DNA from: a virus
DNA length: 50,235 bases
Virus record (IMG/VR): IMGVR_UViG_3300036854_000038
Coordinates: 1 to 50,235 of that record
Reading direction: 5' to 3' (one strand)
Under the pieces are notes generated by a model. That model did no database searches and was not told where the DNA came from. It saw only the letters and a list, made by a program, of their open reading frames with translations. The position numbers and the translations under genes are program-made. Shown here in pieces: positions 24,866 to 43,684 of this stretch (its first letter is position 1; each line of letters opens with the position of its first letter).

Positions 24866-25030
24866 ATGGAGCAAGTCAGGAAGGCCCGGCGGTACACGGC
24901 CACGGTGGAGAGCGCCAGCGGAATCCTCCACACATTCGAGGTTCTTGCGCTCGACCTGAACGGTGCTCGTCATGCGGTGGCGCGCAAGTACCCGGGGACC
25001 TACTTGCGGGCACTGCGCCCAGTCAACTAA
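24866..25030 (+). CDS. Small protein (54 aa)
   Basis: It begins MEQVRKARRYTATVESASGI with a strand-turn-strand look, then a helix (LDLNGARHAVARKYPGTYLR). A G-rich ribosome site (GGGGAGGGG) precedes the ATG. It is the first gene behind promoter set C. Function unknown. Confidence 0.6.
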   Translation: MEQVRKARRYTATVESASGILHTFEVLALDLNGARHAVARKYPGTYLRALRPVN

Positions 25031-25049
25031 CCGAGAGGAGGCGCGAGCA

Positions 25050-25307
25050 ATGGGAATGACGCAGATGGTAAGCGCCGAGCAGATGAGCTCGGCGGCGAGT
25101 TACCTGATCCGGAACTGGGGCGAATACGGCTACAGGATCGGCGTGGAGGCTGCCGGGTTCACGCGCGCCGCGTTCCTATGCCGCGCATCGGACGGCTCAG
25201 AGTTCCGCTTCCTGGTCGACCGGTACGGCAACACGGTTGACCTTCCCGACGCGCCGAGCCTTGACCGGGCGCTCGAGCTGCTGCCCGCCGAGCAGGTGAC
25301 CTCATGA
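25050..25307 (+). CDS. Small protein (85 aa)
   Basis: GAGGAGG lies upstream of the ATG at 25050. The sequence alternates helix (SAEQMSSAASYLIRNWGEYG) and strands (SEFRFLVDRYGNTVDLPDAP), suggesting a compact alpha/beta fold. It overlaps the next gene by ATGA. Function unknown. Confidence 0.6.
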   Translation: MGMTQMVSAEQMSSAASYLIRNWGEYGYRIGVEAAGFTRAAFLCRASDGSEFRFLVDRYGNTVDLPDAPSLDRALELLPAEQVTS

Positions 25308-25498
25308 GCGCGGCCACGGTCGCCGTGTCGCTGGCCTGTGAGACGGGCCGGTGTGACCGGTGCCGCGGGACGGTCGTCAGCCTCACCCGCCCGGTGGGCG
25401 CGCAATGCGAGCACGACTGCCACAGCACCGACGACCAGGCCATCGAGGCGCAATTGGAGCGCGAGCACTTCGGCGAAATCGGCTACTGGGACGAGTGA
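25304..25498 (+). CDS. Cysteine-containing small protein (64 aa)
   Basis: The motif C-x4-CDRC (CETGRCDRC) followed by CEHDCH suggests a zinc site at about residues 12-39. The C-terminus is acidic. It overlaps the upstream gene by ATGA. Typical of the small zinc-ribbon genes of phage early regions. Function unknown. Confidence 0.6.
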   Translation: MSAATVAVSLACETGRCDRCRGTVVSLTRPVGAQCEHDCHSTDDQAIEAQLEREHFGEIGYWDE

Positions 25499-25512
25499 GG
25501 AAGGGGAGAGCA

Positions 25513-25875
25513 ATGACCTACCGCAGAAGCTACGGGCGCCGGTCGAGTGCGCCGCGGCAGGGCCGCTGGATGGCACTTCGCTACGCGGGCACCTGCACCG
25601 CTGGCGAGACACTCGCCGCCGGGACCCGGGCGTTCTACGACCCGTCCGACCGGTCAGTCACGTGCACTGACCTGGAGCACGCCAAGGCGGCCGGGCTGAC
25701 AACGGAGAAGTGGCAAGGCTCGCCGACCAGCGGCAGCTATCAGACCGTGCTGTCCGACGTGCGCCGCGACACTGACGGCGTGGTCGTGGCGAACACGCGG
25801 TACGGCAGGCGGCGCGGCTACGAGTGGACCGGCAGCCGGTGCATCGACGCGCCGTGCTGCGGGTGCTGCGACTGA
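25513..25875 (+). CDS. Small protein with C-terminal cysteine cluster (120 aa)
   Basis: A basic N-terminus (TYRRSYGRRSSAPRQGRW) is followed by a strand-rich domain (YAGTCTAGETLAAGTRAFYD) and a terminal CIDAPCCGCCD. The ATG at 25513 has GGGGAGAG upstream. The cysteine cluster points to metal binding. No homology was recognised. Confidence 0.6.
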   Translation: MTYRRSYGRRSSAPRQGRWMALRYAGTCTAGETLAAGTRAFYDPSDRSVTCTDLEHAKAAGLTTEKWQGSPTSGSYQTVLSDVRRDTDGVVVANTRYGRRRGYEWTGSRCIDAPCCGCCD

Positions 25876-25889
25876 CCAGGAGAAACACC

Positions 25890-26054
25890 GTGACTGATGA
25901 GGAGCTCGCCGAGCACATGCAACAGGTCCACGAGTGGTGGCCCATGGCGCCCGAGGTGGCCCGCAAGTTGCACGACCGCGACCACCGCCAGGCCATCAAT
26001 GGCACATACCGAGGACACCGCCACGACGACCAGGAGGAGGAGCAAGGATGCTGA
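25890..26054 (+). CDS. Small acidic/histidine-rich protein (54 aa)
   Basis: The GTG is preceded by CAGGAGAAA. It begins VTDEELAEHMQQVHEWWPMA and ends HDDQEEEQGC. A single amphipathic helix fills residues 2-32. It overlaps the next gene by 7 bases. Function unknown. Confidence 0.55.
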   Translation: MTDEELAEHMQQVHEWWPMAPEVARKLHDRDHRQAINGTYRGHRHDDQEEEQGC

Positions 26055-26371
26055 CCAACACAACCGCCACGCTGGAGGAGCTCCAGGAGCTCGTGACCGC
26101 GGGCACGCACATCACCCTGTCGCGCCGGATGCCGGAGAGCACCCGGCCCGGGACCTTCTCGGGCGTGCTCAAGCAGGCCAGCGGGCCGTTCCCGCCCTAC
26201 GGCTTCGCCGTGTTGTGGCACGGCGACCAGGGCGAGCAGTCCTACCTCGCTCTGCCTCCCGACTGGGAATGGAGCATCGAGCGCACCGAGCACAGGCACA
26301 CCGACCTGCAAGAGCACGCGCACGACTACATCCAAGGCTCACGGGTGCTGATTCACCGCCACGCGAGCTGA
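26048..26371 (+). CDS. Small protein just before the first hammerhead motif (107 aa)
   Basis: It begins MLTNTTATLEELQELVTAGT and has a strand-rich middle (SYLALPPDWEWSIERTEHRH). AAGGA lies upstream of the ATG. Its TGA is two bases from the first base of the ribozyme, so ribosomes finishing this gene would cover the ribozyme 5' strand. Function unknown. Confidence 0.6.
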   Translation: MLTNTTATLEELQELVTAGTHITLSRRMPESTRPGTFSGVLKQASGPFPPYGFAVLWHGDQGEQSYLALPPDWEWSIERTEHRHTDLQEHAHDYIQGSRVLIHRHAS

Positions 26372-26373
26372 CA

Positions 26374-26427
26374 GGCCGAAACCGGCCGCCCGGCCGGTCC
26401 TAGCGTCAAGCGCTAGCTGATGAGGCC
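26374..26427 (+). ncRNA. Type II hammerhead ribozyme, copy 1
   Basis: All core elements occur in order. Stem II 5' strand GGCC (26374-26377), then GAAA (26378-26381). Stem III CCGGCC-gccc-GGCCGG (26382-26397), then T and C (26398-26399, cleavage after C26399). Stem I CTAGCG-tcaag-CGCTAG (26400-26416), then CTGATGA (26417-26423) and stem II 3' strand GGCC (26424-26427). A further CTG/CAG pair beyond a 3x3 internal loop could extend stem II. It fills the gap between two same-strand genes. Cleavage would leave a 2',3'-cyclic phosphate after the upstream gene and a 5'-OH ahead of the DUF3560-like gene. Confidence 0.9.
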
Positions 26428-26458
26428 AGGCAGACCTCAAGCGAGGGAGGGCAGGGGA

Positions 26459-27529
26459 ATGGTCGAGATTATCCACACCAGGGCCGACGGGACCATGGCG
26501 CACGGCACCACCCGCGGCGATGGCAGCGCGCCGATCCTCAAGCGTGCCGGGTTCCGGTGGGCGCCGTCGCTCAAGACGTGGATTGTGCAGCAGTCCCGCG
26601 ACCGGGCCGTCAAAAGCTGGATTGTCGACGCGGCCGCCGAGGGGCTCCGCGCGGCCGGGTTCGAGGTCACCGTCTCGATCGACGACACCCCGCGCGCATT
26701 CGCGGAGGCCGAGGCCGAGCGTGCCGAGCGGATCAGCGAGCGCGCCGACCGGCTCGAGGGGCGCGCCGGGCGGGCCACCAGCGAGGCTGAGGCACGCTAC
26801 GCGGCCGCGCGCCGCGAGGCGGACCTGATCCCACCGGGCCAGCCGATCCTCGTCGGGCATCACTCCGAGCGTGGGCACCGCGCGGCGCTCAAGCGGATCG
26901 ACAACAACATGCGCCGCTCGATCGAGGCTGACCGCGCGGCGACCCACTACGAACGGGCCGCGAAGGTGGCCGGCCAGTACACCGCCCGCCGCGAGAGCCT
27001 CCCAACGACCCTGCGGCGGATCGCCAAACTCGAGGCGGAGGAGCGCAAAACCCGCCGGGACATGCAGCCGTGCCCGACGTCAGCACGGAAGGCGAAGGCC
27101 GGCAACGAGGGCCGCACGTTCACCTGCCCGCGCTGCTACAACGAGCAGACCATCGGGGCGGATCTGCTGGTGCCCGACCACGGCCGGCGGATCTCGCAGG
27201 CGACCGCGGATCAGCGCCTGGCGGAGCTCGCCGACGAGCTCGCCTACTGGCGCAAGGTGGTCGCCGACCAGGAGGAGGACGGCGCGAAGGTGTGGGGGCC
27301 GGCGGACTTCCGCCCGGGTGACCGGGTCCGGTACTGGGGCGGCTGGCGTGAGGTTCTCAAGGTCAACGCCAAGAGCCTCACCGTGCCATCCGGCTACTCC
27401 TGGGATGAGCGCCTCCCGTATGACGAGGTGCGCGGCCGGCGGGCGGCCGGCGACCCGGGCGGCCAGGTCGAGCACGTCGACCAGGAGGACGACGGGCCGG
27501 CCGACGAGTGCGACGGCGCCGACCGGTAG
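26459..27529 (+). CDS. DUF3560-like protein (356 aa), flanked by ribozymes
   Basis: The conserved segment READLIPPGQPILVGHHSER (about residues 120-139) with the following RRSIEADRAATHYERAAKVA matches my recollection of DUF3560, a family of actinomycete plasmids and phages with no settled function. The N-terminus has a KTWIVQQSRDRAV-type strand-helix unit. A zinc ribbon (CPRCYNEQTIGADLLVPDHG, with an earlier QPCPTS) lies near residue 225, and the C-terminus is a short beta domain (FRPGDRVRYWGGWREVLKVN). GGGAGGGCAGGGG precedes the ATG. Predicted cuts at 26399 and 27558 would release this cistron as a 1159-nt RNA. Confidence 0.8.
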   Translation: MVEIIHTRADGTMAHGTTRGDGSAPILKRAGFRWAPSLKTWIVQQSRDRAVKSWIVDAAAEGLRAAGFEVTVSIDDTPRAFAEAEAERAERISERADRLEGRAGRATSEAEARYAAARREADLIPPGQPILVGHHSERGHRAALKRIDNNMRRSIEADRAATHYERAAKVAGQYTARRESLPTTLRRIAKLEAEERKTRRDMQPCPTSARKAKAGNEGRTFTCPRCYNEQTIGADLLVPDHGRRISQATADQRLAELADELAYWRKVVADQEEDGAKVWGPADFRPGDRVRYWGGWREVLKVNAKSLTVPSGYSWDERLPYDEVRGRRAAGDPGGQVEHVDQEDDGPADECDGADR

Positions 27530-27586
27530 GCCGAAACGGCGCCCGGCCGGGTGCCGTCCGCGGGTAGGGCCCGCGCTGAGGAGGCC
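27529..27586 (+). ncRNA. Type II hammerhead ribozyme, copy 2
   Basis: Stem II 5' GGCC (27529-27532, its first G is the last base of the upstream TAG), GAAA (27533-27536). Stem III CGGCGCCC-ggcc-GGGTGCCG (27537-27556, one G.U pair), T and C (27557-27558, cleavage after C27558). Stem I CGCGGG-taggg-CCCGCG (27559-27575), CTGAGGA (27576-27582) and GGCC (27583-27586). Stems I and III differ in sequence from copy 1 yet pair fully, which is compensatory support for a real structure. The invariant core is the same. Confidence 0.9.
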
Positions 27587-27612
27587 AGAGAGCCCTCACC
27601 AGAGGAGGAGCC

Positions 27613-27777
27613 GTGTACCTGTTCGCCGTGCTGATCGACGGGACCAGCGAGGCCGTCATCGTCGGGGCCGCCAGCAAGTCGCAGGCCATCGAGGCGGCCG
27701 GCCGGCTGCGACCCGGCGTCAACTTCGGCAAGACGTTTGTGCTGCTGACCAGCGACAACCACAGCCACGACTACTGA
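27613..27777 (+). CDS. Small alpha/beta protein (54 aa)
   Basis: GTG start with AGGAGGAG upstream. The sequence has strand (YLFAVLIDGTSEAVIVGAAS), helix (KSQAIEAAGRLRPG) and strand (KTFVLLTSDNHSHDY). It is the first gene after the second ribozyme, so its mRNA would begin with a 5'-OH at base 27559 after cleavage. Function unknown. Confidence 0.6.
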   Translation: MYLFAVLIDGTSEAVIVGAASKSQAIEAAGRLRPGVNFGKTFVLLTSDNHSHDY

Positions 27778-27789
27778 GAAGGAGGCATC

Positions 27790-28047
27790 ATGCCCGAGAC
27801 CTACCCCGATGGCATCCCAATGGAGGCAATGACCGAACGTGACCCCGGCCTCGGCTCCAAACTCGCGGTCAACAGTGCAATCGCTTGCATGCGCGCGGTC
27901 GCCTACCACCGCGGCGCCGCCGAGACCTACGGGGCCGACACCACCAGCGGCGACAGCGGCATCCCGTCGCTGACACTGGCCGCGCAGTACACCGCCGAGG
28001 CGCAGGCGTGGGCGACCATCGCGCTCGCCATTCAGGCGGGACGCTAG
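27790..28047 (+). CDS. Small helical protein (85 aa)
   Basis: GAAGGAGG precedes the ATG. After a polar N-terminus there are two alanine-rich helices (KLAVNSAIACMRAVAYHRGA and LAAQYTAEAQAWATIALAIQ). Possibly a small oligomeric protein. Unknown function. Confidence 0.6.
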   Translation: MPETYPDGIPMEAMTERDPGLGSKLAVNSAIACMRAVAYHRGAAETYGADTTSGDSGIPSLTLAAQYTAEAQAWATIALAIQAGR

Positions 28048-28049
28048 CC

Positions 28050-28136
28050 GTGGCCATCGCCGGCCTTGCCCTCCAGGCCCTGCTGATCGTGGCGGTGGGG
28101 GCGCTGATCGTCCACAACGCCCGCATACCCCGCTGA
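28050..28136 (+). CDS. Possible 28-aa membrane peptide
   Basis: A GTG two bases past the previous stop opens VAIAGLALQALLIVAVGALI, a single hydrophobic span, ending NARIPR. The ribosome site is weak. It is retained because the span is clean and the reading fits the operon, but it is short. Confidence 0.4.
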   Translation: MAIAGLALQALLIVAVGALIVHNARIPR

Positions 28137-28142
28137 GCCTCC

Positions 28143-28182
28143 GACCGGTAGGCGTCAAGGCTGTACTCGACGCCTACCGGTC
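28143..28182. terminator. 14-bp hairpin overlapping the next promoter
   Basis: GACCGGTAGGCGTC (28143-28156) and GACGCCTACCGGTC (28169-28182) pair perfectly around a 12-base loop, directly after the ribozyme operon. The -35 dyad of promoter set D (28154-28171) occupies the loop and inner arms, so termination and initiation share the same DNA. Confidence 0.7.
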
Positions 28183-28206
28183 AAGCATGTAAGGTCATGG
28201 CATGAC
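28154..28206 (+). promoter_or_regulatory. Promoter with two 18-bp operator dyads (set D)
   Basis: A weak -35 (TCGACG, 28167-28172), 17 bp, TAAGGT (28190-28195). The dyads are GTCAAGGCTGTACTCGAC (28154-28171) and GTAAGGTCATGGCATGAC (28189-28206), 35 bp apart. The ATG at 28202 is 6 bases past the -10, so it is leaderless like the gene at 23581. Confidence 0.72.
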
Positions 28207-28459
28207 AACCGTGGAGGAGGTGTGCCCGGTGGAGGTCATCGGACAGCCGGAGATCGCCAAGAAGTACGGTAAGACCCTGCAAACGGTGTGGCAGTGGCGC
28301 CGCCGCTACCCGGACTTCCCCGCCCCACTTCCCGGGCGGGTCGCCGGCGCGCCAGCGTTCAACGCGGCAGCCGTCGACCGGTGGTACACGGCCAAGTGGC
28401 CCGACCGACCCGCAGCGGCCGCCCACCGGGACGGCGATCAGGACGGAAGTAGGCCATGA
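28202..28459 (+). CDS. Helix-turn-helix DNA-binding protein (85 aa)
   Basis: The segment VIGQPEIAKKYGKTLQTVWQ WRRRYPDFPAPLP (about residues 12-44) is the winged HTH pattern of AlpA/excisionase-like regulators, followed by AVDRWYTAKW. It is leaderless and its operator overlaps the start codon, so autoregulation is likely. It is a candidate regulator of the dyad-bearing promoters, an inference from position. Confidence 0.75.
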   Translation: MTTVEEVCPVEVIGQPEIAKKYGKTLQTVWQWRRRYPDFPAPLPGRVAGAPAFNAAAVDRWYTAKWPDRPAAAAHRDGDQDGSRP

Positions 28460-28758
28460 GCGAGGGGCCCATCCGGTGCAGCGACGAATTGACCCGGCGC
28501 ATCCTAGAACACCATCGGCGGATCGGCGTAGCCCTTGGTGCGGCCGTCCAGCAGATGCAGCAGGACGGCCGCCGATTCCATGGCCGCATGGTCGAGGCGA
28601 CCCTGGCCGCAGAGCGCGCCCGGCTCCGAGCACTCCGCGATTACCGCATCGCCCACACACCACGGCTGCTGCGCCCGTTCGCGCGGGTGGTCGCGCACCT
28701 TGCCTACCAGATCACGCTGGCGTGGGAGGACCTACCGCCCGAGCGCAAACGTCGATAA
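28456..28758 (+). CDS. Small helical protein (100 aa)
   Basis: It overlaps the HTH gene by ATGA. Mostly charged helix (EATLAAERARLRALRDYRIA) with a hydrophobic patch near the C-terminus (LLRPFARVVAHLAYQITLAW). It is the last gene of the rightward block and converges with the minus-strand genes starting at 28770. Function unknown. Confidence 0.6.
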   Translation: MSEGPIRCSDELTRRILEHHRRIGVALGAAVQQMQQDGRRFHGRMVEATLAAERARLRALRDYRIAHTPRLLRPFARVVAHLAYQITLAWEDLPPERKRR

Positions 28759-28769
28759 GCGAGCCCGGC

Positions 28770-28955
28770 TCAGCGCCGCTCCGGTCGGGTCGGGTTTGGC
28801 CGCGGTTTGAGCGCGGCGACCGCCGCGGCGGCAGGCACACCACGGAGGAACAGGGTGCAGACAGCGCACCGGTCGGCTGGTAGGTGATCGCCGGGCTGGA
28901 CAATGCCGGTGTCGTGCTCCAACCAGAGAATCCGGCGCCGCGGCTGGCCGCTCAC
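28770..28955 (-). CDS. Small cysteine-containing protein (61 aa)
   Basis: The GTG at 28955 overlaps the upstream stop (GTGA). The sequence WLEHDTGIVQPGDHLPADRC ends in a CAVC knuckle, then an alanine-rich, basic tail. It is the last gene of the leftward block from 38.7 kb. Function unknown. Confidence 0.55.
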   Translation of the reverse strand: MSGQPRRRILWLEHDTGIVQPGDHLPADRCAVCTLFLRGVPAAAAVAALKPRPNPTRPERR

Positions 28956-29119
28956 GCCGGCCGCTGCTTGCGCGCGTCGTACCAGCGCCAGCCGGGAATG
29001 CCGTACGAGCGGCACGCGCCACACAGCGCCCAGCCGCACATCCCACTGGCGCAGTGCCGGCCGAGCTGACGCTGCCCACAGGAGGGACACTCGACCTCGG
29101 CGCGCGCGTCCCGGGTCAA
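28952..29119 (-). CDS. Zinc-ribbon protein (55 aa)
   Basis: A TTG overlapping the previous stop opens LTRDARAEVECPSCGQRQLG; with HCASGMCGWALCGAC this gives a C-x2-C...C-x4-C...C-x2-C zinc ribbon. The start codon is inferred from coupling only, since no clear ribosome site is seen. Confidence 0.6.
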   Translation of the reverse strand: MTRDARAEVECPSCGQRQLGRHCASGMCGWALCGACRSYGIPGWRWYDARKQRPA

Positions 29120-39382: not shown

Positions 39383-39744
39383 GCCCCCACCTGGTGGTCG
39401 GCGTGTGCATGGCCGCCGCGTTCCTGGGCGCTGCCACCGGCAGCGCCCTCGGCCACTGGGTCGCCGACCGGCTCAGGCTGGCATCCCCCCACGATCAACG
39501 TAACGATCGTTCCCCCATCTGTACGAAATTCCGGGACCGTAACACTGCTGTGACCAACCGGTCGGATGCTTCCGCCCCTCTACGCCGAGTAGAAGGGGGG
39601 CCCCTTGGAATCGTCCACGACCGCCGCAGTGGGCACGCGCCTGCTCGAACACTTCTCCGACCAGCTCCACCGTATCCCCCTAGGCTTCGGCCCCCGCCAC
39701 CTGGTCGCGCTGCTGATCCTGCTGGCCGTGGGGTACGTGGCTAG
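39379..39744 (+). CDS. Possible membrane-anchored peptide overlapping the integrase (121 aa)
   Basis: The ATG overlaps the upstream stop (ATGA). The N-terminus (SPHLVVGVCMAAAFLGAATG) is a signal or membrane segment. After about residue 40 the frame becomes Arg/Pro-rich and runs 140 bases into the integrase, so only the N-terminal part is convincing. It may be shorter or spurious. Confidence 0.4.
   Translation: MSPHLVVGVCMAAAFLGAATGSALGHWVADRLRLASPHDQRNDRSPICTKFRDRNTAVTNRSDASAPLRRVEGGPLGIVHDRRSGHAPARTLLRPAPPYPPRLRPPPPGRAADPAGRGVRG
39502..39511. promoter_or_regulatory. Short palindrome upstream of integrase
   Basis: AACGATCGTT is a perfect 10-bp palindrome, with a nearby ACGATC repeat. It is in the lower-GC 39480-39570 segment before the integrase and could be a regulator site. 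No stronger evidence. Confidence 0.3.
39575..39598 (+). promoter_or_regulatory. Hairpin covering the integrase ribosome site
   Basis: CCCCTCTAC pairs with GTAG-a-AGGGG (one bulge) around GCCGA. The G-run that serves as ribosome site for the TTG at 39605 is partly in the 3' arm, so integrase translation may be held down until the hairpin opens. Confidence 0.55.
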
Positions 39745-40960
39745 GCATGCACCGGACCCCCACGGCCAGCTGGCCGGTGCCCTGCCCGACTCGGGCAGCC
39801 TCCCAGACCCCGAGCTGTACATCGCCGGGCTGACCGGCGGCGGCCTGTGGGAGCGCTACAAGCTGACCATCTCCATGGACGGCCGTCACGAGCCGTCCAC
39901 CGTCGCCCAGTGGGGCGAGGTGTGGGACGACTGGCTCGTCTACCTGCACGCGGCCGGGTGCCGGCGCCGGCCGGGCCGCTGCGACCGTGGGGAGGGCTGC
40001 AAGGGCATCCCCTGGCAGCGCGCCCGGGAGCGGCACTTGAAGGCGTTCCTGGACCTGCCGTGCCGCAGCGGCCCCCGCAAGGGCATGGCCAAGACGGTCG
40101 CCACCAGGGCGGCCTACCTCAAGGCGATCAAGCCGGTGTACCAGTTCGCCGTCCGCAAGCGCATCCTGAGCCGCGACCCGTTCGCCGACGTCCGCCCACC
40201 CAAGGTCGGCGACGGGCTGGCTATCGCGTTCTCCCGCGACCAGCTCGCCAAGATCCTGACCGCCGCGGCCGGCCACGCCGACCGGCGGATCTACATCATG
40301 TGCTGGCTGGGCTACCACGGCCTGCGGTGCATGGAGATCGCCGGGTTGCGCCGCGAGCATGTCCGCCTGGACGACGAGCCGGTGCTGCTGGTGCACGGCA
40401 AGGGCAGCAACCGCCGGGAGGTCCCGGTGATGCGCCTGTTCGTACCGGTGCTGGCCGAGTGGACCCGGGACATGGGGACCTTCGACCCGCTGATCGTCGC
40501 CCACGACAACCAGTGCCGGCCGACCGCGCAGCCGCTCAGCCCCTCCCGGATCTCGGGGATGCTGAGCGACTTCATCCGCCACGACGCGGGCGTCGGCGGC
40601 AGCGCCCACCGGCTGCGGCACACCGCGGCGACGTTCATGCTCGACGAGGGCGACGGGGAGAACCTGCATCATGTCAGCCGGTTCCTCGGGCATGCCAGGC
40701 TCGACACGACGATGATCTACGTGCGCGCGCACCAGTGGAACGTCCGCAAGTGGGTCGACCGGATGCCGGACCCGGCTGACCCGACCCGCCGGCAGCCCCA
40801 GCCGCAGCGCCTCGGTGAGCTGCTCGGCGAGGCACTGCGGCAGACGCTCACCCCGGAGATGAGCCGGCGGCTCCGGGACCTCCCCGAGGACCTGGCCGCA
40901 ACCTACCGGCCGCTGCTGGAGCTTGGCCACCTGCTCGCAGCCGATCAGGCCGGCGGTTGA
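39605..40960 (+). CDS. int: Tyrosine integrase (451 aa)
   Basis: This enzyme is expected to recombine attP with a chromosomal attB. Catalytic residues are all present: Arg241 (YHGLRCMEIAG), His335 and Arg338 (AHRLRHT), His363 (FLGHARLDTT) and nucleophile Tyr372. The core-binding region is about 90-200. Residues 32-46 form a hydrophobic segment, unusual for an integrase. The TTG start has a GGGGGG ribosome site within a hairpin. It converges with the excisionase-like gene by 16 bases. Confidence 0.92.
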   Translation: MESSTTAAVGTRLLEHFSDQLHRIPLGFGPRHLVALLILLAVGYVARHAPDPHGQLAGALPDSGSLPDPELYIAGLTGGGLWERYKLTISMDGRHEPSTVAQWGEVWDDWLVYLHAAGCRRRPGRCDRGEGCKGIPWQRARERHLKAFLDLPCRSGPRKGMAKTVATRAAYLKAIKPVYQFAVRKRILSRDPFADVRPPKVGDGLAIAFSRDQLAKILTAAAGHADRRIYIMCWLGYHGLRCMEIAGLRREHVRLDDEPVLLVHGKGSNRREVPVMRLFVPVLAEWTRDMGTFDPLIVAHDNQCRPTAQPLSPSRISGMLSDFIRHDAGVGGSAHRLRHTAATFMLDEGDGENLHHVSRFLGHARLDTTMIYVRAHQWNVRKWVDRMPDPADPTRRQPQPQRLGELLGEALRQTLTPEMSRRLRDLPEDLAATYRPLLELGHLLAADQAGG

Positions 40961-42199: not shown

Positions 42200-42528
42200 T
42201 CAGCGGAGCACTGACGTGTCATCAATTTCCGGGTCAAACCCGAGGCGGGCCACGCAGTCGGCCTCCCATGATCCCGGCCGGCGGGCGAGCAGGCGGGTCA
42301 TCCCGCCGGCCTTGGCGCTGGCCTGGCGGATGCCGTCCGACAGCCAGCCGGCAATCTCGATGCCGTCGGCGTGCGCCCAGCCGATCAGCGTGGCCAGCGC
42401 GTCGGTGTACTCCGTGGCGTACTCCGTACTCCACGGCGGGGCTCTGGGTCGAGGTCGCTGCCGGGTCGGATAATCTGCTGGTCGTCAGCAGTTCTGCCAG
42501 TGGCTGAGTCGATTGGGTTGTCGGTCAT
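42200..42528 (-). pseudogene. Frameshifted gene (109 aa if restored)
   Basis: The ATG at 42528 overlaps the resolvase stop and reads MTDNPIDSATGRTADDQQII. After SDLDPEP the frame runs out, while the next frame continues naturally (TEYTDALATLIGWAHADGIE, EADCVARLGFDPEIDDTSVL) to a TGA at 42200. Adding one C to the C-run near 42438 restores a single open frame (PEPPPWSTEYATEY). The total is one base short of a multiple of three. It is either a genuine mutation or an assembly error. Three copies of GGAGTAC nearby may favour slippage. Confidence 0.7.
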
Positions 42529-43229
42529 TGGCTTTCCTCCCGGAGGCGGCGGGACAGGGTGGTGCGGGCCATGCCGACCGCGCCGGCGACCTCGTCAAGG
42601 CTCAGCCCGCCCGCGGTCAGCAGCTCCCTTGCGCGCGTGACCTGACCTGCGTCGTTGTGCCGTGGACGGCCTCCTGTGCGGCCTCGCGCGCGCGCTGCTT
42701 CCAGGCCAGCGCGGGTGCGTTCGCGGAGCAGGTCCCGCTCGAACTCGGCCAGCGCCGCCATGATGTGGAACAGCAGCCTGCCGGCCGGCGTGCTGGTGTC
42801 CAGCGCCTCGGAGAGGCTGTGGAAGGCGACGCCGCGGCGCTCCAGCTCGCCGACGACCTCCAGGAGGTGCTTGAGGCTGCGGCCGAGCCGGTCCAGCTTC
42901 CACACGACCAGCGTGTCCCCCGGGCGCAGCTGCTCCAGGAGCGCGTCGAGCTCCGGGCGGTCCTGGCGGGCGCCGCTGGCGTGGTCGGTGAACACCCGCC
43001 GGCAGCCGGCCCGCTGGAGCGCGTCAAGTTGGAGCTCGGGATGCTGGTCGACGGTGGACACGCGGGCGTAGCCGAGCTGGTAGCCGGACCACTCTGGCGG
43101 CGGGCCGAAACCCGTCGTGTCGGCCTGGTCGGCGGCCAGGGTTTTGGTCGACGGTTTTGGTCCCGGACGATCGCCGTTGGCGCCGGCCGGGCCCGGGTCG
43201 ACCACAAGGGAGCGTTTCTGCCCGGTCAC
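42525..43229 (-). CDS. Serine resolvase/invertase (234 aa)
   Basis: A Tn3/Pin-type recombinase: nucleophile Ser58 in GYARVSTVDQ, then LVVWKLDRLGRSLKHLLEVV, EALDTSTPAGRLLFHIMAAL and EFERDLLRERTRAGLEAARA. A C-terminal HTH (LSLDEVAGAVGMARTTLSRR) completes it. The N-terminal 50 residues are a non-canonical extension (VTGQKRSLVVDPGPAGANGD). The GTG overlaps the upstream stop. A role in resolving dimers of a circular form fits the plasmid-like block. Confidence 0.9.
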   Translation of the reverse strand: MTGQKRSLVVDPGPAGANGDRPGPKPSTKTLAADQADTTGFGPPPEWSGYQLGYARVSTVDQHPELQLDALQRAGCRRVFTDHASGARQDRPELDALLEQLRPGDTLVVWKLDRLGRSLKHLLEVVGELERRGVAFHSLSEALDTSTPAGRLLFHIMAALAEFERDLLRERTRAGLEAARARGRTGGRPRHNDAGQVTRARELLTAGGLSLDEVAGAVGMARTTLSRRLREESQ

Positions 43230-43684
43230 GTCTTGCTCGCTCGGTCGTAGTCGTCGAGCCACCGCTGCGCGTATTCGCTGAGCCGGTAGTACTCCTCCGG
43301 GTGCAGCTTCGGATCGCCGCCGTGCTTGCGCTTCATCCAGCCGAGCAGGTCGCCGATGATCTCGAAGGCTTCCTGATCGGCCTTGCGCAGCCGTTCGACC
43401 TCGCCGATGAGGTGGTCGGTATCGTCGGGGGCATGGGCGATGAACTCAGCGTCTTCGCGTTTCCAGACGCCAGCTTCACCATGTTCGGTCGCCACGATAC
43501 TGTCGTCGTCTTCCCGGCCGAGGATGTCCCAGTGCCACTGGGCCGACTCCTCATGTGATGGCCGTGAGCGGCGCCATGCTTCGCCGATCCGATCGTGAAC
43601 CCGCCACGGCGGCCGGGTGATGGCTGCTCTGCGAGCCTTGATCTGGTCGAGGTTGAGCGGATCGGGGACGGCAGGGTCAGTCAT
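43226..43684 (-). CDS. Conserved helical protein (152 aa)
   Basis: DPLNLDQIKARRAAITRPPW followed by HDRIGEAWRRSRPSHEESAQ, then DAEFIAHAPDDTDHLIGEVE and a C-terminal helical region. This layout recurs in Streptomyces phage and plasmid proteins of unknown function. It overlaps the resolvase by GTGA. Confidence 0.65.
   Translation of the reverse strand: MTDPAVPDPLNLDQIKARRAAITRPPWRVHDRIGEAWRRSRPSHEESAQWHWDILGREDDDSIVATEHGEAGVWKREDAEFIAHAPDDTDHLIGEVERLRKADQEAFEIIGDLLGWMKRKHGGDPKLHPEEYYRLSEYAQRWLDDYDRASKT

Follow-up and report, generated by a model that had tools for sequence, protein, structure and literature searches.

Why would a temperate phage operon carry a hammerhead ribozyme on each side of a single gene, and what would the two ribozymes do for the RNA that they interrupt? 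The window examined here, the whole 50,235-base virus record that was analysed, encodes the gene set of a temperate tailed phage, including terminase, portal, major head protein, major tail protein, endolysin and integrase, and the phage is a temperate siphovirus of actinobacterial type. Its terminase shares 59% identity with that of Thermobifida phage P1312, and therefore the host is probably an actinomycete. Besides the integrase match at 39605-40960, a gene of the DNA invertase/resolvase family was found at 42525-43262. Both ribozymes lie in a rightward gene island that is bounded by leftward genes on both sides, with the structural genes on one side, in agreement with the phage operon setting given in the first-pass annotation. 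The features are as follows.

24963-29069, plus strand: rightward gene island with both ribozymes (ORF and GC3 analysis)
26048-26371, plus strand: upstream cistron, 107 aa, no Pfam match, stop codon TGA at 26369-26371 (translation, Pfam)
26373, plus strand: A directly 5' of stem II of copy 1, near-invariant in relatives (A in 164/165 type II copies)
26374-26427, plus strand: type II hammerhead, copy 1, predicted cleavage after C26399 (core sequence, Rfam, descriptor, fold)
26443-26451, plus strand: Shine-Dalgarno-like GAGGGAGGG for the DUF3560 gene (sequence)
26459-27529, plus strand: DUF3560 gene, 356 aa, stop codon TAG at 27527-27529 (Pfam 2.1e-27)
27529-27586, plus strand: type II hammerhead, copy 2, predicted cleavage after C27558 (core sequence, Rfam, descriptor, fold)
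27602-27609, plus strand: Shine-Dalgarno-like GAGGAGGA (sequence)
27613-27777, plus strand: downstream cistron, 54 aa, GTG start (translation)

The DUF3560 gene starts at ATG 26459, as backed by its homologue in the related phage contig L172, and not at the ATG within the ribozyme core. The latter (26420-26422, in the CTGATGA of copy 1) is in the same frame as the start at 26459, therefore ORF callers stretch the gene into the ribozyme.

Both copies contain the complete hammerhead core, CUGANGA, GAAA and the UH before the cleavage site, with zero deviations. In copy 1, the 5' half consists of GGCC (26374-26377), GAAA (26378-26381), stem III CCGGCC/GGCCGG and T26398 C26399, and the 3' half of stem I CTAGCG/CGCTAG, CTGATGA (26417-26423) and GGCC (26424-26427). 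The corresponding elements of copy 2 are GGCC (27529-27532), GAAA, stem III CGGCGCCC/GGGTGCCG and T27557 C27558, followed by stem I CGCGGG/CCCGCG, CTGAGGA (27576-27582) and GGCC (27583-27586). Stem II is open and stems I and III are loop-closed in both, which is the type II (RF02276) layout, and stems I and III differ between the copies yet pair fully in each. The hammerhead, with three helices around the core, was the MFE fold for both exact segments, in which stem I gains one closing U-G pair. With these exact boundaries the mean pair probability was 0.98 for copy 2 and 0.73 for copy 1, where competing GGCC pairings are present. The core, the divergent but fully paired stems, the predicted cleavage sites C26399 and C27558 and the length of 1159 nt for the RNA between the two predicted cuts (26400-27558) were all reported correctly in the first-pass annotation.

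The Rfam model RF02276 matched both copies at 29.5 and 22.9 bits (E = 0.0013 and 0.07 in a 1.3-kb search), both under its gathering score of 37, which is a curation threshold and not a biochemical criterion. A default scan of the whole window matched neither motif owing to its speed filters, and a scan of the short stretch matched both. A pairing-aware descriptor found exactly two motifs in the window, both on the plus strand. The scores under the gathering threshold and the competing pairings of copy 1 might suggest inactive relics or chance matches. However, the descriptor had no match in 200 windows shuffled in dinucleotide blocks, the two copies have different stems that are both perfect, and the hammerhead in L172 has a covarying stem II (GGTC/GACC), so that relics or chance matches are barely credible. 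We conclude that both ribozymes are almost certainly real.

A special part of the DUF3560 gene in the arrangement was not supported. Eighty terminase relatives were tested with the descriptor, many of them short contigs that end before the region, and L172 (75% terminase identity) was the sole ribozyme carrier among them. Its DUF3560 protein is 70% identical to that of the window, and no ribozyme was found on either side of its gene; one type II hammerhead, with a TGA stop codon four bases ahead, is located some 2.1 kb further upstream within that run of genes. Since L172, the closest relative, keeps the gene with the ribozyme elsewhere, the flanking of DUF3560 by ribozymes is not conserved, and to judge from these sequences ribozyme position changes faster than the genes. 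Processing at the DUF3560 gene would therefore be dispensable, and neither the special role for the DUF3560 message proposed at first nor a DUF3560-specific function of the ribozymes was retained. Loss of the core from close relatives that conserve the flanking genes had been named as evidence against the first reading, and L172 goes half of the way: the gene is kept without adjoining ribozymes, but a core persists upstream. L172 was found through its terminase; a search of the viral and genome collections with the DUF3560 protein yielded no relatives. DUF3560 is very common on plasmids.

Hammerhead cleavage leaves 5'-OH and 2',3'-cyclic phosphate ends, and two ribozymes flank the gene here, so the first-pass annotation had considered excision of the 1159-nt DUF3560 RNA and its closure into a circle by an RtcB-type ligase. 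We consider this highly improbable. No RtcB gene was found on the record, which may however be incomplete, and such a ligase could also come from the host. The bracketing is absent in L172, many phages carry a single ribozyme or a long series rather than a pair, and circles were sought for similar clusters and none was found (PMC3088659).

Prophage hammerhead clusters flanking single genes were published in 2011; they cleave in vitro, and one does so in E. coli (PMC3088659). The window pair, two hammerheads on one transcript strand flanking a single gene, is an addition to this already known arrangement. It resembles the type II ribozymes of Perreault 2011 (RF02276) in element order, core nucleotides, closed hairpins, phage setting and copies that flank single genes. 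A close comparison is the ardA cluster of an Agrobacterium tumefaciens prophage, in which ribozymes also flank single phage genes and which cleaves both in vitro and in E. coli (PMC3088659); unlike the window with its two copies and DUF3560 gene, that cluster has three copies.

To place the pair in a wider context, a survey was based on a pattern that fixed stem II as GGCC and left stems I and III free, which was found in at least 118 IMG/VR stretches and 47 bacterial genome stretches; because of this seeding and of the capped number of matches listed, fractions from the survey are not population estimates. When pairing was required, 169 motifs were obtained versus 0 in reversed-sequence controls, and covariation in stem I extends over every Watson-Crick pair type. 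This architecture, with the stems left free, was present in well over 100 IMG/VR contigs. Nine type II copies are spread along about 4.2 kb of one operon on one contig (L009), where some of the copies with a GGCC stem II score over and some under the Rfam gathering score, and a Singulisphaera genome (L165) has six type II copies. Five type I hammerheads stand in series on one phage contig (L294:6082-8000), so type I forms arrays as well. Type II hammerheads with similar stems, one or two per contig, were found on short contigs (L138, L146, L150 and L167) that belong to a single Micromonosporaceae MAG (Dino_bin41), and these probably have one phage or plasmid source. The pattern match in Mycobacterium lepromatosis (L141) and several other genome matches showed no hammerhead fold by the descriptor and were set aside.

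Arrays were also found in cultured phages. The Streptomyces phages Alvy (L444), Thestral (L446), Janus (L447), Issmi (L448), Tefunt (L452) and Daudau (L453) carry several type II hammerheads each, mostly unannotated, and up to six within about 5 kb exceed the Rfam gathering score. Like the window copies, these are of type II and lie at stop codons, as arrays in series among small genes. Unlike the window copies, they mostly have a GGC/GCC stem II and a longer stem-loop I, most of the tested copies exceed the gathering score, and their neighbours include no gene named DUF3560 in the deposited annotation. In Alvy (L444:1054-1180) and Thestral (L446:1167-1294), two type II hammerheads stand in tandem, about 10 nt apart, behind one stop codon.

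The closeness of the ribozymes to the upstream stop codons had already been noticed in the first-pass annotation. In the window, the TGA ends at 26371, two bases ahead of copy 1, and copy 2 shares a G with TAG 27527-27529: stem II begins with G27529, and A27528 is the conserved A described below. To measure this placement, the stop codon was taken from the longest upstream frame of at least 60 codons, with annotated genes used only in annotated phages, and scored at -12 to +8 of the first base of the ribozyme. Among the IMG/VR phages, an upstream stop fell into this interval in 120/156 type I and 115/161 type II copies and in 3/38 type III copies. The counts were 81/105, 80/120 and 3/29, respectively, in a nonredundant set (p < 1e-7); the survey set includes related phages, whose relatedness this test reduces without removing it, and the type III sample is small. 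At control positions shifted by 250-900 nt the stop distribution was flat. The form of copy 2 (TAG at -2) is the commonest among type II copies and that of copy 1 (TGA at -5) falls into a second peak. In the cultured Streptomyces phages, 17/24 type II copies begin no more than 20 nt after an annotated stop of the deposited gene calls. Stop codon placement is thus general for types I and II, as far as it can be read from gene predictions. We regard the stop codon placement, and not the DUF3560 bracketing, as the most interesting part of the finding. Stop codons go unmentioned in Perreault et al. 2011 (PMC3088659), and no earlier report of such a rule was found in a literature search that covered few subscription journals. 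Hammerheads that flank phage genes are already known, and the part for which no earlier report was found is the stop placement together with the conserved A and the type III hairpin described below.

The base directly 5' of stem II in type II copies was A in 164/165 cases (163/171 after loci were added), and the first loop I base past the six-bp stem was U in 142/142 type II copies with a 17-nt stem-loop I. Neither base was part of the search pattern, and both are present in the two window copies. We take these bases to be the loop II A and the loop I U that contact each other in the tertiary fold of fast natural hammerheads, and A26373 is probably the partner of the loop I U on the side of loop II. 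A pseudoknot between loop I and the 3' tail, for which copy 2 can form 5 bp and copy 1 only 3, showed no excess over permuted tails in 133 type II copies with a GGCC stem II (z about -1) and was rejected as a shared feature of this subgroup. Such a pseudoknot was predicted in the majority of published type II ribozymes (Perreault et al. 2011, PMC3088659). The window copies differ from these in the 4-bp GGCC/GGCC stem II and in showing the invariant loop I U and the A instead of a supported pseudoknot.

The conserved A lies within the stop codon in 60/161 type II copies, either in a TAG that overlaps stem II by one base or in a TAA or TGA directly ahead of it; copy 2 is an example, as its TAG shares the A and the G with the ribozyme. 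In type I, the catalytic U4G5A6 is itself an in-frame stop in 33/156 copies. These overlaps would fit control of cleavage by translation, a possibility raised in the first-pass annotation: while a ribosome terminates, it would keep the stem II strand (type II) or the core (type I) from folding, and cleavage would hinge on whether the upstream gene is translated. However, the A is just as invariant where the stop is far away (45/45), therefore the A is structural first, and compaction of the genome yields a like placement. We find this ribosome-dependent mechanism rather doubtful.

Compaction could also be the whole explanation, with the ribozymes as passengers that move into various phage operons, survive only where the gap fits and have no role in gene expression. 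The gaps are tight on both sides of the ribozymes, from the stop codon to the next Shine-Dalgarno sequence, and turnover appears to be quick, with a ribozyme in 1/80 terminase relatives, many of whose contigs end before the region. Yet cores and tertiary-contact nucleotides are kept while the stems diverge fully, and passenger status would not predict the hairpin that accompanies type III ribozymes on the 5' side only. Compaction with no further role is thus unlikely.

This hairpin, perfect and flush with the ribozyme, was found on the 5' side of 15/39 nonredundant type III copies and on the 3' side of 0/39. Compared with control positions, of which about 6% had such a hairpin, the type III count on the 5' side has p = 4e-9. 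The same test gave 0/110 for type I and 3/129 for type II, and by its strict definition 24/39 type III copies lack the hairpin. In L369, L293, L411, L287 and others, perfect hairpins, often with GAAA or TTCG tetraloops, abut the type III ribozyme with no gap. Coaxial stacking is an unlikely cause, since the hairpin is on the 5' side only. After the stop codon and ahead of the cut, types I and II have one or two hairpins of their own, whereas type III cuts ahead of its own hairpins and has no built-in hairpin 5' of the cut. With the added 5' hairpin of type III and the built-in ones of types I and II, a hairpin near the 3' end of the upstream message can therefore be common to all three types. 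The downstream messages share no such 5' hairpin across the three types, as type I leaves none.

We favour as reasonably probable that the two copies cleave the operon RNA on either side of the DUF3560 cistron, each 28-29 nt past a stop codon, giving hairpin-ended mRNAs while transcription continues. The tail of each upstream message would consist of the stop codon, GGCCGAA, the stem III hairpin and UC with a 2',3'-cyclic phosphate, and each downstream message would have the stem I hairpin at its 5'-OH end, followed by its own Shine-Dalgarno sequence and start codon. The message of the 107-aa gene would stop at position 26399, that of DUF3560 would span 26400-27558 and the next message would run from 27559. 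The stem III hairpin would shield the upstream 3' end in the manner of an intrinsic (Rho-independent) terminator, while the polymerase reads through into the genes beyond, and each cistron may then decay at its own rate. As with such a terminator, the message would have a hairpin shortly after its stop codon, at the 3' end; unlike with a terminator, transcription would go on and the end would be made by RNA cleavage. Intrinsic terminators leave a U tract with a 3'-OH, and ribozymes leave a cyclic phosphate. The reading starts from the core, the fold, the position and the like layout across phages, which were established directly here, and by analogy we would expect cleavage in the window phage, protection of the 3' end and independent decay. 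Against it stand the Rfam scores under the gathering threshold, the like placement that compaction alone could give, the type III copies without a flush hairpin and the L172 DUF3560 gene without ribozymes.

It is possible, and we put it forward tentatively, that all three topologies form one system of stop-anchored, self-cleaving makers of 3' ends that replace operon terminators. Catalytic or tertiary-contact nucleotides of types I and II would come from the stop codon or overlap with it, so that termination and cleavage would be physically coupled, and type III would regain the hairpin by adding one. The role of hammerheads in phages has been a question since 2011, and the placement rules described above suggest a defined task for them, the making of the 3' end of the upstream message. 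In the cultured Streptomyces phages with several ribozymes in about 5 kb, the proposed role would be directly testable by RNA end mapping.
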